Source: Leisingera daeponensis DSM 23529 (GTDB taxonomy: Bacteria > Pseudomonadota > Alphaproteobacteria > Rhodobacterales > Rhodobacteraceae). From it: a stretch of DNA of 64,000 nucleotides. The stretch spans positions 2,443,725 to 2,507,724 of the forward strand of contig NZ_KI421500.1 of assembly GCF_000473145.1 (NCBI RefSeq). The letters run 5' to 3'. This document shows positions 16,514 to 21,943 of this stretch, in pieces. The notes under the pieces are model-generated. The model saw only the letters and a program-made list of their open reading frames with translations, was not told the origin of the DNA and made no database searches. Numbering within the stretch: the first letter of the stretch is position 1; each line of letters opens with the position of its first letter. The position numbers and the translations under genes are program-made.

Positions 16514-17904
16514 CAGAGCCGGAACCTCAGCGCCATGCGGCGGCCGTGCCGGTTCAGGTCCAGCTGGATCCAGCGGCCGCTGCCTGCAAGAATTGCATAA
16601 ACGTCATCGGTGCTGGCCACTGCCTGGCCATTCACTGCCAGCAGCTGGTCGCCCGCCTGCACCCCGCCGCGCCCGGCATAGGGGCCGGGGTCGGTGACCA
16701 CCACGCCCTCCGCCGACAGGGGCAGGCCGAGGCGGGCAATCACCTGCGGATTGATCCGCGCCACGGTCAGCCCGGGCAGCGCGGTCTTGTCATCCAGCTG
16801 CACCGGGTTGGCGGGCGGCTGGTCGGGCGCCACGATCATCGGCACCTCGATCTCCTCCCGTTCGCCGCCGCGCAGGCGGGTGATGACCGACATATCGCCA
16901 AGCCCTGCCACCGACATGCGGAACACCATTTCCGAGGGCGAATTCACCACCTCGCCGTCCACATGGGTGATCACGTCGCCCGGCCTGAACCCTGCCTTTG
17001 CAAATGGACTCTCGGCGTGCAGATCCGAGACCACCATGCCCTCCGGCAGGTCCATCCCGAGAGAGGCCGCCAGATCCGCGTCCACCGGCTGGCCCGCCAT
17101 GCCCGCCCAGGGTCGCTGGAACTCTTCCGCGCCGCTGCGGGCCTGGGCGACGAATTCCTTCACCAGGTTGGCGGGAATCGCAAAGCCGATGCCGTTGGAG
17201 CCGCCGGAGCGCGACAGGATGCGGGTATTGATGCCAATGAGGTCGCCATTGACGTCGATCAGCGCGCCGCCGGAGTTGCCTGGGTTGATCGGCGCGTCGG
17301 TCTGGATGTAGTAGCCAAAACCGTCGCCCGCCCCCATGCCGGTGCGCGCCAGCCCCGAGATGATGCCGCTGCTGACGGTCTGGCCGACCCCGAACGGGTT
17401 GCCGATCGCCAGCGCCAGCTCACCCACCTGCACCTCGTCGCTGTTGCGCAGGTCCAGATGCGGCAAGCCTTCGGCCTCTTCCAGCTGCAGGATTGCCAGG
17501 TCGCTGGCCTTGTCGCCCAGGATCACCCGCGCATTGTATTCGCGCCGGTCCGCCGTCACCACGCGGATTTCCGTGGCGCTGCCGACGACGTGGTAGTTGG
17601 AGACCACGATGCCGTCCGCCGACAGGATCACGCCTGAGCCGAGCGAATTTTCCACCCGCGGCTGCGGCTCGGCAAAGCCGCGGAAGAAGTCATCGAAGAA
17701 CGGATCGTTCATGAACGGCGAGCGGCGGCGCTGCTGCACCTGGCGCACCACCTTGGCGTAGATATTCACCACCGCCGGCGCCGCCTCCTTGACCAGCGGC
17801 GCAAACCCCAGCGCGATCTCCGCCTGGCTTTGCGGCACCCGGGTTTCAGCGGCGGCAGGCAGGGCAAGAATGATGGCAAGGGCAGTAAGCGCGGGACGGA
17901 TCAT
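16513..17904 (-). CDS. Do family periplasmic serine endoprotease (DegP/DegQ-like)
   Basis: A 463-residue HtrA-type protease. A signal peptide (about 1-19, ending AAAE) is followed by a trypsin-like domain with His105 (SNYHVVG), Asp135 (SDLAILQ) and Ser211 (NPGNSGGAL), then two PDZ domains (about 260-345 and 370-455). It degrades or refolds damaged envelope proteins. ATG 17904 is chosen because the signal peptide begins there; the frame extends far upstream but has a repeat-like intergenic composition. It overlaps rarA by one base. Confidence 0.93.
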   Translation of the reverse strand: MIRPALTALAIILALPAAAETRVPQSQAEIALGFAPLVKEAAPAVVNIYAKVVRQVQQRRRSPFMNDPFFDDFFRGFAEPQPRVENSLGSGVILSADGIVVSNYHVVGSATEIRVVTADRREYNARVILGDKASDLAILQLEEAEGLPHLDLRNSDEVQVGELALAIGNPFGVGQTVSSGIISGLARTGMGAGDGFGYYIQTDAPINPGNSGGALIDVNGDLIGINTRILSRSGGSNGIGFAIPANLVKEFVAQARSGAEEFQRPWAGMAGQPVDADLAASLGMDLPEGMVVSDLHAESPFAKAGFRPGDVITHVDGEVVNSPSEMVFRMSVAGLGDMSVITRLRGGEREEIEVPMIVAPDQPPANPVQLDDKTALPGLTVARINPQVIARLGLPLSAEGVVVTDPGPYAGRGGVQAGDQLLAVNGQAVASTDDVYAILAGSGRWIQLDLNRHGRRMALRFRL

Positions 17905-18021
17905 GTGGACTCCAGCAGATGTTGCCCGAAGGATATGCGGAGTGCGCGCGCGGATTGCAAGGCGGGAGGCGGACCGGGCCGCAGCGGAGCGCGGGCGCGC
18001 TGCCCCGCAGGCCAGGGGAAG

Positions 18022-18150
18022 CAGGGGCGCTGCCCCTCTTGGCCGGACGGCCAATTCACCCCGGGATATTTCCGGCCAGGAGAAGCGGGCGGCCGCACAA
18101 GGCGCCGGCCCTTCCTCTTTCCCGAAATACTCCCCGCCGGAGGCACGCGC
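18022..18150. repeat. Interspersed intergenic repeat, copies 3a and 3b in inverted orientation
   Basis: The first half (18022-18075) repeats the GGGGCGCTGCCCCTCTTGG and CCAATTCACCCCGGGATATT blocks seen at 4625-4670. The second half (18111-18145) holds CCTCTTTCCCGAAATACTCC, the block seen at 15132-15170. Read on the - strand the second half resembles the first half's GGGATATTT core, so the two form an imperfect inverted pair that could fold into a long hairpin. It occupies most of the 274-base gap between aroG and the Do protease gene. Confidence 0.55.
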
Positions 18151-18178
18151 CGCACGGCGCGTTCTCTTGCGGCGGGCC

Positions 18179-19258
18179 TCAGGCTTCGGCCAGCTCCCGC
18201 TGCGCGGCCACCGCGCGGCGCTTGGCAACCGCTGCGGCCAGATGCTCCAGCTCCGCCACGGTGTCCTCCCAGCCCAGGCAGCCGTCGGTGATGGACTGGC
18301 CGTAGGTCAGCTCCCCCGTGCCCAGGTCCTGACGGCCCGCCACCAGGTGGCTTTCGACCATCACGCCGGTGATGCGGCTGTCGCCCGCGGCGATCTGGCC
18401 CGCCACATCGCGCAGCACGGCGGGCTGGCGCATCGGGTCCTTGCCGCTGTTGGCGTGGCTGGCGTCGATCATCACATGGCCGCGGATGCCGTCCTTTTCC
18501 GCCAGCTTGCAGGCCGCATCGACCGAAGCCGCGTCATAATTGGTGCCGCCGCCGCCGCGCAGGATCAAGTGGCCGTCGGGGTTGCCGCTGGTGGCCGCAA
18601 TCGCCGCGCGGCCCGATTTCGCCAGCGCCATGAAATGATGCGGATGGGCGGCCGAGCGCACCGCGTCCACCGCGATCTGCACATTGCCGCGGGTGCCGTT
18701 CTTGAAGCCCACCGGGCAACTGAGGCCGGAGGCCATCTCGCGGTGGATCTGGCTTTCGGTGGTGCGGGCCCCGATGGCGGCCCAGGCGACCAGGTCGGAG
18801 ATGTACTGCGGCACCGCAGTGTCCAGGAACTCGGTGCCGACCGGCAGCCCCAGGGCGTTGATGTCCAGGCACAGGCGGCGCGCCAGCCCCAGCCCCTCGT
18901 TGATGCGGAAGGAGCCGTCGAGGCCGGGATCGTTGATCAGCCCTTTCCAGCCGCTGATGGTGCGGGGTTTCTCGAAGTAGACCCGCATCACGATCTCCAG
19001 CTCGCCGGCGAGCCGGCCGCGCAGCGGCGCCAGGCGGCGGGCATAGTCCATCGCCGCCTTGGGATCATGCACCGAGCAGGGGCCGACGATGGCGATCACC
19101 CGGTCGCTGCGGCCGTGCAGCACATCCTGAATGGCGGTGCGGCTGGCCAGAACGGTGTCTGTTACCGCTGCCGCCGAGGGCAGCTGTGCTGCAAGATCCT
19201 CGGGCGAGATCAGTTCCTGCATACCGGTGATGCGGAGGTTTTCGGTTTGGGGCGTCAT
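18179..19258 (-). CDS. aroG: 3-deoxy-7-phosphoheptulonate synthase (DAHP synthase, class I)
   Basis: A 359-residue class I (AroFGH-type) DAHP synthase. It condenses phosphoenolpyruvate with erythrose-4-phosphate, the first committed step of the shikimate pathway. Visible blocks are IAIVGPCSVHDPKAAMDYA, MRVYFEKPRT, GWKGLINDP, the RTTESQIHREMASGLS region and MIDASHANSGKDP, which together supply PEP and metal ligands. It starts about 110 bases after a 25-codon aromatic-rich leader peptide and an intrinsic terminator, so expression is probably attenuated by phenylalanine/tyrosine/tryptophan supply. The isozyme letter is uncertain. Confidence 0.9.
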   Translation of the reverse strand: MTPQTENLRITGMQELISPEDLAAQLPSAAAVTDTVLASRTAIQDVLHGRSDRVIAIVGPCSVHDPKAAMDYARRLAPLRGRLAGELEIVMRVYFEKPRTISGWKGLINDPGLDGSFRINEGLGLARRLCLDINALGLPVGTEFLDTAVPQYISDLVAWAAIGARTTESQIHREMASGLSCPVGFKNGTRGNVQIAVDAVRSAAHPHHFMALAKSGRAAIAATSGNPDGHLILRGGGGTNYDAASVDAACKLAEKDGIRGHVMIDASHANSGKDPMRQPAVLRDVAGQIAAGDSRITGVMVESHLVAGRQDLGTGELTYGQSITDGCLGWEDTVAELEHLAAAVAKRRAVAAQRELAEA

Positions 19259-19301
19259 GGGTCTGCTTCCTTGGCGGGGGCCCTGGGCGCTGCGGCGGAT
19301 A

Positions 19302-19332
19302 CAAAAAAACCGCCTGCGGGCTGCGGGCGGTT
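19302..19332 (-). terminator. Attenuator terminator in the aroG leader
   Basis: AACCGCCTGC (19308-19317) pairs with GCGGGCGGTT (19323-19332) around a 5-base loop, and on the - strand the stem is followed by seven T residues. It lies between the leader peptide stop (19365) and aroG (19258). A GGCGG stretch inside the leader frame (complement of 19388-19392) can pair with the CCGCC of the terminator's first arm on the RNA, offering an antiterminator alternative. Confidence 0.85.
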
Positions 19333-19364
19333 GGTGGTATCCTGGTGCGTTCCGATCCTGGTGT

Positions 19365-19442
19365 TCAGAATGCGCTGACCCCTCCGTCCGCCATGTGGCG
19401 CGGATAAAAGAAATACCAGAATGCGGCGTAGGTGCGGGTCAT
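19365..19442 (-). CDS. Aromatic-rich leader peptide of aroG (attenuation)
   Basis: A 25-codon frame on the - strand contains the run FWYFFY at residues 8-13 plus Tyr5 and Phe25, giving eight aromatic residues in 25. It is followed by an intrinsic terminator and then the DAHP synthase gene. This is the layout of an amino-acid attenuator: a ribosome stalled at the aromatic codons would expose an antiterminator. The ATG sits seven bases after a promoter-like -10, so the leader may be translated from a leaderless or nearly leaderless mRNA. It is too short for ordinary gene finders. Confidence 0.8.
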   Translation of the reverse strand: MTRTYAAFWYFFYPRHMADGGVSAF

Positions 19443-19449
19443 GGGCCGG

Positions 19450-19478
19450 ACGCTAGCGGAGATTCGCCCCCCTGTCAC
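19450..19478 (-). promoter_or_regulatory. Promoter of the aroG leader
   Basis: On the - strand GTGACA (19473-19478) and TAGCGT (19450-19455) are separated by exactly 17 bases, and the leader ATG follows seven bases later. The -35 matches the TTGACA consensus at five positions; the -10 is weaker. It is placed between the chemoreceptor terminator and the leader peptide. Confidence 0.5.
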
Positions 19479-19491
19479 CCCGGAAAATGGC

Positions 19492-19520
19492 AGCAGGCCC
19501 TCCGCGCGGGAGGGCCTGCT
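19492..19520 (-). terminator. Intrinsic hairpin after chemoreceptor gene
   Basis: AGCAGGCCCTCC and GGAGGGCCTGCT form a 12-bp stem (19492-19520). On the - strand it is followed by GCCATTTT. It lies 17 bases past the chemoreceptor stop, and just upstream of the aroG leader promoter. Confidence 0.75.
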
Positions 19521-19537
19521 TTACGGGCTGGGGCGGG

Positions 19538-21943
19538 TCAGAAATCCTGCCACAGATCGCGGGCGGCATTGCCCTCTGCCGCAGGCATCGCTGCGGCGGG
19601 CAGCGGGCTGGCCTCGATCTCCCAGTCATCGCCGCCGTGGGCAGAGGGCGCGGGCGCCGCCGGGGCGGCAGGCGCGGCGGCGCTGCCGTCGACCTGGAAG
19701 CGCGCCACCAGCTCGGCCAGCTTGATCGCATCGGTGTTCAGCATGTGGCCCGCGGCGGTGGCCTGTTCCACCATCGCCGCGTTCTGCTGGGTCACCTGGT
19801 CCAGCTGGGTGACGCCGGTGTTGATCTCAAGCAGGCCGGTGGATTGCTCCGCCGCGCCTTCGGCGATCTCCGACACCAGCTGCGAGATATGGCTGACCCG
19901 GCCGGCGATGGAGCGCAGCGCCTGGCCGGCGCGGCCGACCAGATCCACGCCCTCCGCCACCTGGCGCGAGCTGTCGCCGATCAGCGTCTTGATCTCCATC
20001 GCGGCATCCGAGGAGCGCTGCGCCAGGGCGCGCACTTCCGAGGCAACCACCGCAAAGCCGCGGCCCGCCTCGCCCGCGCGGGCGGCCTCCACGCCGGCGT
20101 TCAGCGCCAGCAGGTTGGTCTGGAAGGCGATGTCGTCGATCACCGAGATGATCTGCGAGATCTTGTTGGAGCTGTCCTCGATGCCGCTCATCGCGGTCAC
20201 CGCATCCTGCACCACCTCGCCGCTGCTTTCGGCCTCCTGTCGGGCCTCCCGCACCGTGGTCTCGACGTTGCGCGCGCCTTCCGCGGCCGAGCGCACGCTG
20301 GCGGTCAGCTCGTCGATGGCGGCGGCAGTCTCCTCCAGCGTCGCGGCCTGGCTTTCGGTGCGGTGCGACAGGTCGTCGGAGGCCTGGCTGATCTCGGCGG
20401 CACCATTGCGGATGCTGGCCGAGGCGCCGATCACCTCCTGCACGGTGGCGGTGAGGTTGTCGATGGAACCGTTGAAGTCTGCCCGCAGCTGCTCGTATTC
20501 CTCCGGGAAGGGCTCTTCGATGCGGATGGTCAGGTCGCCGTGCGACAGCCGCGACAGGCGCTCGCTCAGCTCCTGCACCACGCCGGCCAGCTCCGCGTCC
20601 TTGCTTTGCGCCTTCTGCTGTTCGGCTTCCTGCATCCGCACCAGCTCGTCGCGGAACTTCTCCAGCGCGCGGGCCATGTCGCCGATTTCGTCGCCCCGGT
20701 GCTGGCCGTGGATCTCGACGGCGTTGTCGCCCTCTGCCAGACCGCGCATCGACACCACGATGCGGCGGATGCCGGAGGCGATGCCGGAGCTGGTGACCAG
20801 CGCCATCACCGCGCCGATCAAGATCGCCGCGCCGATTGCGGCGGGGATCAAGATCCGGGTGTGCTCCGCGATGCGGTCGCTGGCGGCGCGGCGGGCGGCC
20901 ATGGTTTCGGTGCCGCGGGCCTGCAGCGAAGCCAGGGTTTCGCGGAATCGGTCGAAATACGCCTTGCCCTGCCCCTCGGCCACCCGGTCGGCCATGTCAT
21001 CCATGGTGGCGGCGCTGCCGATCAACCGGCGCAGCTGCAGCATCGGCACCACCACGTCATTGCGCCAGTTGCCGATGATCTCGGCCACCGTGTTCAGGCG
21101 GTTGGTCTGCATCAGCTTGTCGCTGAAAGCCAAACGCAAGTCCGCCAGGATCTCGTTAAAGCGCTCGTTGCCCTCCATGTAGGGGTCCAGAAACGCCCGG
21201 TCGCCCGCCAGCAGGAAGCCGCGCACGCCGGTTTCCATGTCGACGGCGGCGGCCAGCAGGTCCTTGGCGGTGCTGATCACCTCATGGGCCTTCTCCACTT
21301 CCTCCAGCGAGGCGCCCAGATAATCCGGATCGGCAATCCCGGCATTGACCAGCGAGGAGAAGATGTTGCGGCGGTTGGCAAGCTCCACCTCCTCGTCCTC
21401 GATGATCTTGCCGACCTCGGCGCGGAACTCGTCAAACAGGATCCGGCCCTTGGACTTCTTCACCGCATCGGCCATGTCGTTCATGCTCATGGCGTCGCCG
21501 ATTTCGCGGCGCAGCTCGATGGCGCCGGCGGCCACATTCTCCTGCCAGCCGGTCAGGATCTCCTCTGCCTCCTGCAAATCCGCCAGCATTTCGGGATCAT
21601 CCGACGCCAAACCCTTCAGCGCCGTCAGCGCCTCTGCCAGGTCGGCCTGGCCTGCCTCATAGGGCGCCAGAAACTCTTCCCGCCCCGCCAGCAGGTAGCC
21701 GCGCAGCCCGGACTCCATGTCCAGCGCAGCCACCGCCAGCGATTGCGACTCGCTCAGGATCCGGCCGGTGTGATCGACTGCCTTGGAGGTCTTCTCCATG
21801 CGGCCCAGGTCCAGAACAGCCATCACACCGACGCCAAGCACCAGCAGCAGCGGAAACAGGGCCACCGAAACGATTTTCGTCTTCGTACTGAGGTTTGCCA
21901 GGGAAAACCGCCTGGCTGCGGGAGGGTTCTTCTTTTTCATCAC
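19538..21943 (-). CDS. Methyl-accepting chemotaxis protein with duplicated CHASE3-like sensor
   Basis: An 801-residue chemoreceptor. Membrane segment about 24-46, a periplasmic region of two similar halves ([13 protein letters not shown] at 75-87 and [13 protein letters not shown] at 235-247, offset 160; later IELRREIG and LQLRRLIG also match), a second membrane segment about 364-386, HAMP (about 387-440), then the signalling hairpin with [20 protein letters not shown]. The halves look like tandem CHASE3-type sensor modules. The C-terminus ends DLWQDF, a WxxF tail resembling the CheR/CheB-docking pentapeptide. No che genes are adjacent. Confidence 0.9.

Follow-up and report, generated by a model that had tools for sequence, protein, structure and literature searches.

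A putative aromatic amino acid attenuator with a probably leaderless leader peptide preceding type I aroG in Leisingera daeponensis and other Proteobacteria

The region upstream of aroG in Leisingera daeponensis DSM 23529 very probably acts as a ribosome-mediated transcription attenuator with a probably leaderless leader peptide, through which the combined availability of charged tRNA-Phe, tRNA-Tyr and tRNA-Trp would govern aroG expression. Here we give its description in the window, a stretch of 64,000 nucleotides of contig NZ_KI421500.1, and across relatives of the gene. Ribosome-mediated attenuation is a classical form of control, exemplified by trp and pheA. The reaction of DAHP synthase commits carbon to phenylalanine, tyrosine and tryptophan alike, and the isozymes of Escherichia coli are repressed via TyrR and TrpR. 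A preliminary description of this DNA, made from the letters alone, had read the region before aroG as an aromatic attenuator, and this reading is supported by sequence comparison and folding models. One putative attenuator with codons for all three products accompanies a patchily distributed type I aroG in Alphaproteobacteria, Xanthomonadales and other lineages. The leader is a compact candidate RNA family without an Rfam match, a system for studying leaderless initiation and its coupling to transcription, and a likely control point relevant to engineering such bacteria for aromatic products.

The presumed controlled gene, aroG (18179-19258, minus strand), encodes a type I 3-deoxy-7-phosphoheptulonate (DAHP) synthase of 359 amino acids (TIGR00034, NF009395). 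Its product scores 496.6 bits against TIGR00034, for which the cut-off is 173.2 bits, and a Shine-Dalgarno sequence, AAGGAAG, lies 7 nt 5' of the aroG ATG. Upstream, on the same strand, is the leader peptide frame MTRTYAAFWYFFYPRHMADGGVSAF (19442-19365), with its ATG at 19442-19440, 25 codons and a TGA stop codon at 19367-19365. Eight of the 25 codons are aromatic (Y5, F8, W9, Y10, F11, F12, Y13 and F25), in agreement with the earlier account of a 25-codon frame carrying FWYFFY and two more aromatic residues. The putative regulatory codons, F W Y F F Y (codons 8-13), occupy 19421-19404. A -10-like element, TAGCGT (19455-19450), ends seven bases before the leader ATG, as had been noted before; relatives have elements of the CTAGCG, CTATAT or TTATCAAT types. 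It is preceded at a spacing of 17 nt by a -35-like element, GTGACA (19478-19473), of a TGACA type found at a similar distance from the ATG in most alphaproteobacterial representatives.

Four strands were delimited in the leader RNA by folding and pairing counts. Strand 1, UCCGCGCC (19404-19397), is the predicted 5' arm of a 1:2 hairpin, and strand 2, GGCGGACGGAGGG (19392-19380), is the predicted partner of either strand 1 or strand 3. Strand 3, AACCGCC (19332-19326), serves both as the 5' arm of the terminator and as the 3' arm of the antiterminator, and strand 4, GGCGG with the U tract (19314-19303), is the 3' arm of the intrinsic terminator. The terminator (19332-19303) reads AACCGCC-C-GC-agccc-GC-A-GGCGGTT and includes seven T residues at 19309-19303, the first two of which are paired in the stem; a terminator with seven T followed by a DAHP synthase gene is thus present as first described. 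The antiterminator pairing then proposed, of GGCGG (19392-19388) with CCGCC (19330-19326), is likewise possible in the window. A simple consensus scan of the window for promoters and terminators reported neither the leader promoter nor the terminator, because the -10 element is weak and the terminator hairpin is interrupted by an inner mismatch. Folded in full, the 143-nt leader shows no unusual stability (z -0.70). The single sequence is therefore insufficient, and comparative evidence carries the case.

Upstream of the leader and on the same strand lies a chemotaxis-receptor gene (21943-19538; CHASE3-HAMP-MCPsignal). Directly after its stop codon there is a strong hairpin, AGCAGGCCCTCC/GGAGGGCCTGCT (19520-19492), with only four T some nucleotides later, which is probably the receptor gene's own terminator.

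Relatives were collected with the aroG protein as the query, and the best 80 of at least 587 relatives were fetched as loci, together with loci from further genomes; since the best 80 were taken, close relatives are over-represented. The 113 loci were reduced to 112 by setting aside one type II enzyme (L092). A leader of the same architecture precedes type I aroG at 101 of the 112, with ten loci lacking it and one not judgeable (L028, the sequence of which begins 47 nt before aroG). Of these best 80 loci, 69 have a leader, ten lack it and one lies on a contig cut too near to judge. Leaders occur in relatives of Roseobacter, in Caulobacteraceae, Bradyrhizobium and Devosia, and in Xanthomonadales. 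The ten loci at which the script found no aromatic leader (L051, L053, L061, L066, L068, L069, L070, L071, L073 and L081) belong to Methylococcaceae, Methylobacillus, Thiomargarita, Betaproteobacteria MAGs, an Anaeromyxobacter MAG and an unclassified proteobacterial MAG. Leaders at L052, L059, L063 and L077 were placed manually, and for L013, L018 and L085 the leader start was shifted to the earliest ATG in frame. The 101 loci include genomes reached twice, by different routes; the comparisons below use 51 representatives less than 85% alike.

The gene itself is present in all 21 searched genomes of the window's genus and in only 11 of 198 genomes of the family, the latter by a word-based first look that may miss diverged copies. 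In an aroG tree of 74 of 75 proteins (L193 missing) the ten loci without a leader do not form a single clade (3 changes), which fits an old element that was lost, or lost and regained, in places. Two loci carry titles at odds with their alphaproteobacterial-type aroG and leader, L006 (titled Nocardioides marinus) and L029 (Mycobacterium sp. KBS0706); these are likely mislabelled or contaminated assemblies.

The leaders of the 51 representatives are 23-32 codons long and contain 6.5 aromatic residues on average. Whether relatives keep the aromatic codons had been set in the preliminary description as a point on which the proposal should stand or fall, and they do: the leader recurs at the 101 of 112 loci given above, and F, W and Y occur together in 49 of the 51 representatives. 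The peptide of L052 has only three aromatic codons, and L052 and L112 are without Trp. Among 5000 dinucleotide shuffles of the upstream region in the window, none contained an ATG frame of 10-45 codons with at least six aromatics in seven residues; over all representatives the same criterion selected 0 of 5100 shuffles vs 22 of 51 real sequences, and a run of at least five aromatics in seven residues appeared in 5 of 5100 shuffles vs 45 of 51 real sequences.

These counts bear on the reading that the frame is a chance one beside a terminator of the upstream receptor gene and that aroG is not regulated, to which the position of that gene, upstream on the same strand, lends some colour. The aromatic run is absent from shuffles, the receptor gene has its own hairpin at 19520-19492, and the leader stays with aroG at the five loci checked while the genes upstream of it differ (MatE, aminotransferase, YitT, SUKH and MCP, three of them in the opposite direction), which places the terminator with aroG. 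The reading was rejected on these grounds and has a next to negligible probability.

At six core codons, pairwise comparison of 18 representatives from the window's family gave 178 aromatic-to-aromatic differences, 102 synonymous ones and 147 others. Because F, Y and W exchange at these codons, the pattern fits a reader of general aromatic supply and not of one exact peptide. Counting substitutions by codon position in the 49 representatives that have a TGG codon gave no information, because the interchange of F, Y and W proceeds via second-position changes. An arrest peptide, in which the nascent chain would sense a free aromatic amino acid and stall the ribosome, rather than slow decoding doing so, would find some support in the core order F-W-Y-F and the position of the Trp codon, both well conserved over the 51 representatives. 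The same six core codons nevertheless swap F, W and Y in the numbers just given, aromatic runs of another order are found in other families, and what stays constant is the presence of aromatic codons at a set distance from strand 2; we consider an arrest peptide very unlikely, and slow decoding of aromatic codons remains the preferred reading.

The position of the promoter points to a leader transcript that begins at or next to the leader start codon. In 47 of the 51 representatives (41 of 44 alphaproteobacterial and 6 of 7 xanthomonad ones) the best or joint-best sigma-70-type site between -115 and +60 around the leader start leaves 6-10 nt to the start codon, most commonly 7 nt. The promoter score averaged over loci is 5.1 standard deviations above the mean at -8; the next peak, of 3.7 standard deviations, is at +29, inside the T-rich aromatic codons. 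Shine-Dalgarno runs of at least four occur at 7 of 51 leaders vs about 8 of 51 in shuffles, that is, without enrichment, and at 43 of 51 aroG starts when the best in-frame candidate start is chosen. The suggestion of a leaderless frame in the preliminary description is probably correct, and leaderless initiation of the leader peptide is judged probable because of the promoter position in 47 of 51 representatives together with the lack of Shine-Dalgarno enrichment. At 14 further loci, from genomes found by the class and phylum model searches described below, the leader-proximal promoter was uniquely the best at seven, tied at three and not the best at four; leaderlessness is therefore less certain there.

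The same attenuator could also have a normal 5' untranslated region, with a start site tens of nucleotides upstream, in which case leaderlessness would be only apparent. TAGCGT is a weak -10 element, the simple scan reports no promoter, and the four further loci with the best promoter elsewhere include L184 and L187, at -23 and -38, all of which favour a normal 5' region; against it stand the gap of 6-10 nt between promoter and ATG in 47 of 51 representatives and the unenriched Shine-Dalgarno sequences of the leaders. On balance we hold a normal 5' region to be rather unlikely and retain the leaderless reading.

The strands were assessed in each representative by folding models. When folding ran from strand 2 through strand 3, strands 2 and 3 paired in 51 of 51. 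Masking the stop codon, as if a ribosome sat there, let 1:2 form in 47 of the 51 representatives and 3:4 in 50. In ribosome-free folds ending at strand 3, 2:3 was present in 48 representatives and 1:2 in only five; once strand 4 was included, the terminator won at equilibrium in 42 of 51. Since ribosome-free folds give 2:3 before strand 4 and 3:4 once strand 4 is present, the modelled switch must be kinetic, with timing and not equilibrium deciding. In these models the antiterminator is exclusive with the terminator, and by the spacing it opens just after the regulatory codons. The energy of the antiterminator (the 2:3 stretch) has a mean z of -3.14 and is negative, i.e. more stable than shuffles, in 51 of 51, and shuffles also pair 2:3 in 485 of 2040 cases. 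A terminator hairpin was present in every distinct locus scored except L059, in which the stretch was shortened by a misplaced anchor.

Pairing between strands was also counted across the alignment. For 2:3, 85.9% of cells are paired vs 81.7% in shuffles, none of 500 of which reached the observed value, and 15.5-57.0% after sliding; for 3:4 the values are 93.0% vs 85.2% (again none of 500) and 21.0-59.9%. The covarying stems looked for after the preliminary description are accordingly found in part: the pairing of 2:3 and 3:4 is conserved, and covariation proper is weak. By the two measures least misled by relatedness, both-side changes and pair types, 2:3 has three both-side changes, reached in 50 of 500 shuffles, and further pair types reached in 157 of 500, and for 3:4 the observed numbers were reached in 280 and 325 of 500 shuffles, respectively. 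Weak strict covariation is to be expected of a GGCGG/CCGCC core that is nearly invariant. An RNAalifold consensus of the 51-row alignment recovers the terminator only (7 pairs, one with changes on both sides), and 1:2 and 2:3 were therefore tested sequence by sequence.

The spacing of the elements is narrow. The last aromatic codon lies 13-15 nt 5' of strand 2 in 42 of 51 representatives, and the stop codon follows the start of strand 2 by 25 nt in 40 of 51. Given the size of a ribosome footprint, such distances are what one would predict for a ribosome that, when stalled, hides strand 1 but not strand 2. The RNA lying between strands 2 and 3 is somewhat more stable than its shuffles (mean z -1.59; p < 0.05 in 16 of 51; median p 0.085, with the L112 boundary off), which is suggestive of a hairpin around the leader stop codon. 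In L074 and L090, which have diverged aroG genes, strand 2 (CAGCGG) and strand 3 (CCGCTG) are perfectly complementary, and the terminator has a G-U pair there; because of this difference, the balance in these two loci may lean towards antitermination.

A structured 5' region with a terminator before a biosynthetic gene would also suit a ligand-binding riboswitch or a T-box, the frame then being incidental. The Rfam 15 families, Phe_leader and Trp_leader included, gave no match at E up to 1 in window positions 17000-21500. A scan of the aroG leaders of 11 relatives gave nothing above threshold and neither Phe_leader nor Trp_leader; the sole match over such a leader was RNAI on the terminator of L183, with 28.8 bits vs a gathering threshold of 47 and E 0.16. 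The conserved parts are confined to the coding frame and the four strands, and the 45 nt before the ATG share a promoter-like pattern only. A riboswitch or T-box was rejected for these reasons and is extremely unlikely, leaving ribosome-mediated attenuation as the preferred reading.

A covariance model was built from the 51 leaders and used to search further genomes. In 385 genomes of the class it matched with E < 1e-10 in 14, and the same 14 are those in which TIGR00034 scores above its cut-off; leader and gene are adjacent in 13 of the 14 and lie on two contig ends in the other (G403). At least two of the 14 genomes (G000 and G245) supplied rows to the model. Matches at E <= 0.01 were obtained in at least 134 of the 385 genomes, those outside the 14 having E values of 1.6e-6 or more; the weaker matches listed are mostly partial, at the terminator end, and none of the three that were read (L200, L201 and L202) stands before aroG. 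TIGR00034 is below its cut-off in 24 further genomes of the class. In 299 genomes of the phylum the model matched in 34 at E <= 1e-6, and the 15 of these that were read comprise 13 before type I aroG, one before a pheA-like gene and one chance-looking match. Type I aroG was judged in the 13 from the downstream frame, and in L197 by identity of its leader with that of L039. New leaders from this search include MTAKFYFYFFWHLTPLADREGRL and MQSRNFFAFYFWFSVPGGREARL. The weak match before the pheA-like gene (L194, genome G827) is itself a Phe_leader (RF01859) with the peptide MKLFPFFFAFFFTFP. The window's genome has a second, type II DAHP synthase outside the window (G000:C2:972981-974291, the locus L092 set aside above), and the 500 nt preceding it showed no frame with an aromatic run.

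The mechanism we propose builds on the frame, the promoter position, the mutually exclusive strands, their spacing and the linkage to type I aroG. Transcription would start at, or a few nucleotides from, the leader AUG, and a ribosome would load on the leaderless 5' end. When aromatic tRNAs are scarce, the ribosome would stall on the F/W/Y run with its front covering strand 1; strands 2 and 3 could then form the long antiterminator hairpin, which holds the leader stop codon, and polymerase would enter aroG. With ample supply the ribosome would reach the stop codon and open the antiterminator, so that 1:2 could form behind it and 3:4 would terminate transcription. By geometry, Phe and Tyr (codons 10-13) would be expected to weigh more than the Trp codon, which is about 26 nt from strand 2, and a stall at the earliest aromatic codons may leave the ribosome short of strand 1. 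It is possible, though we put it forward as tentative, that the leaderless start is itself functional. A ribosome loading as the 5' end emerges would couple translation to the polymerase, free of a Shine-Dalgarno sequence, over the approximately 50 nt to strand 2, and the distance between promoter and AUG would therefore be held from roseobacters to xanthomonads; there would be one leaderless three-amino-acid sensor at the entry to the shikimate pathway, and the terminated RNA of about 140 nt could act in trans like rnTrpL/peTrpL of Sinorhizobium.

The preliminary description did not recall an aromatic leader on DAHP synthase in this lineage as described. For the lineage this agrees with open-licence PMC, where the matches listed included no account of aroG attenuation in Alphaproteobacteria or Xanthomonadales and the phrase 'aroG leader' was not found. 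It does not hold for DAHP synthases at large, for which attenuators have been published in Corynebacterium glutamicum and a candidate in Acholeplasma. In the available text of one proteobacterial survey, only trpEDCBA and pheA are named as attenuated (PMC5343134).

The closest published likeness is the aroR leader of the aroF (DAHP synthase) operon of C. glutamicum, a leader peptide with aromatic codons before a DAHP synthase gene, as here, with transcription rising in Phe limitation (PMC11802643, PMC4046766). Compared by description only, it differs in being actinobacterial and in its Phe-Tyr-Phe run, with no Trp mentioned in the passages available. According to the accessible part of its source, uORFC-13-1 upstream of aroF in Acholeplasma is a candidate frame with at least one Phe codon and a terminator before a DAHP synthase gene, known from 24 representatives; it has a ribosome-binding site and belongs to another phylum (PMC8632094). 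For the leaderless start the nearest case is trpL/rnTrpL of Sinorhizobium meliloti, an alphaproteobacterial, ribosome-dependent attenuator of trpE(G) whose RNA begins with the leader AUG (PMC7298713, PMC10117765). As far as the excerpts of these sources go, that leader differs in its consecutive Trp codons, its 14-amino-acid peptide and its target gene, and its RNA and peptide also act in trans. The ilvBNC attenuator of C. glutamicum, as described in the portion available, is transcribed from a site one nucleotide away from the first codon of the leader, has regulatory codons for more than one end product (Ile, Leu and Val) and includes a terminator, antiterminator and anti-antiterminator (PMC11857589); it serves the branched-chain pathway, and this comparison too is by description only. 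Phe_leader (RF01859, pheA) and the trp attenuators of Gammaproteobacteria are of the same mechanism class; they differ in the gene controlled, and Rfam gave no match to them at the aroG leaders scanned. As published attenuators of the same kind exist, and as the aroG leaders have neither an Rfam match nor a proteobacterial account within the scope given, these leaders are best viewed as a new and widespread family of a known type of control, carrying codons for all three aromatic amino acids and, probably, a leaderless start that has been conserved.
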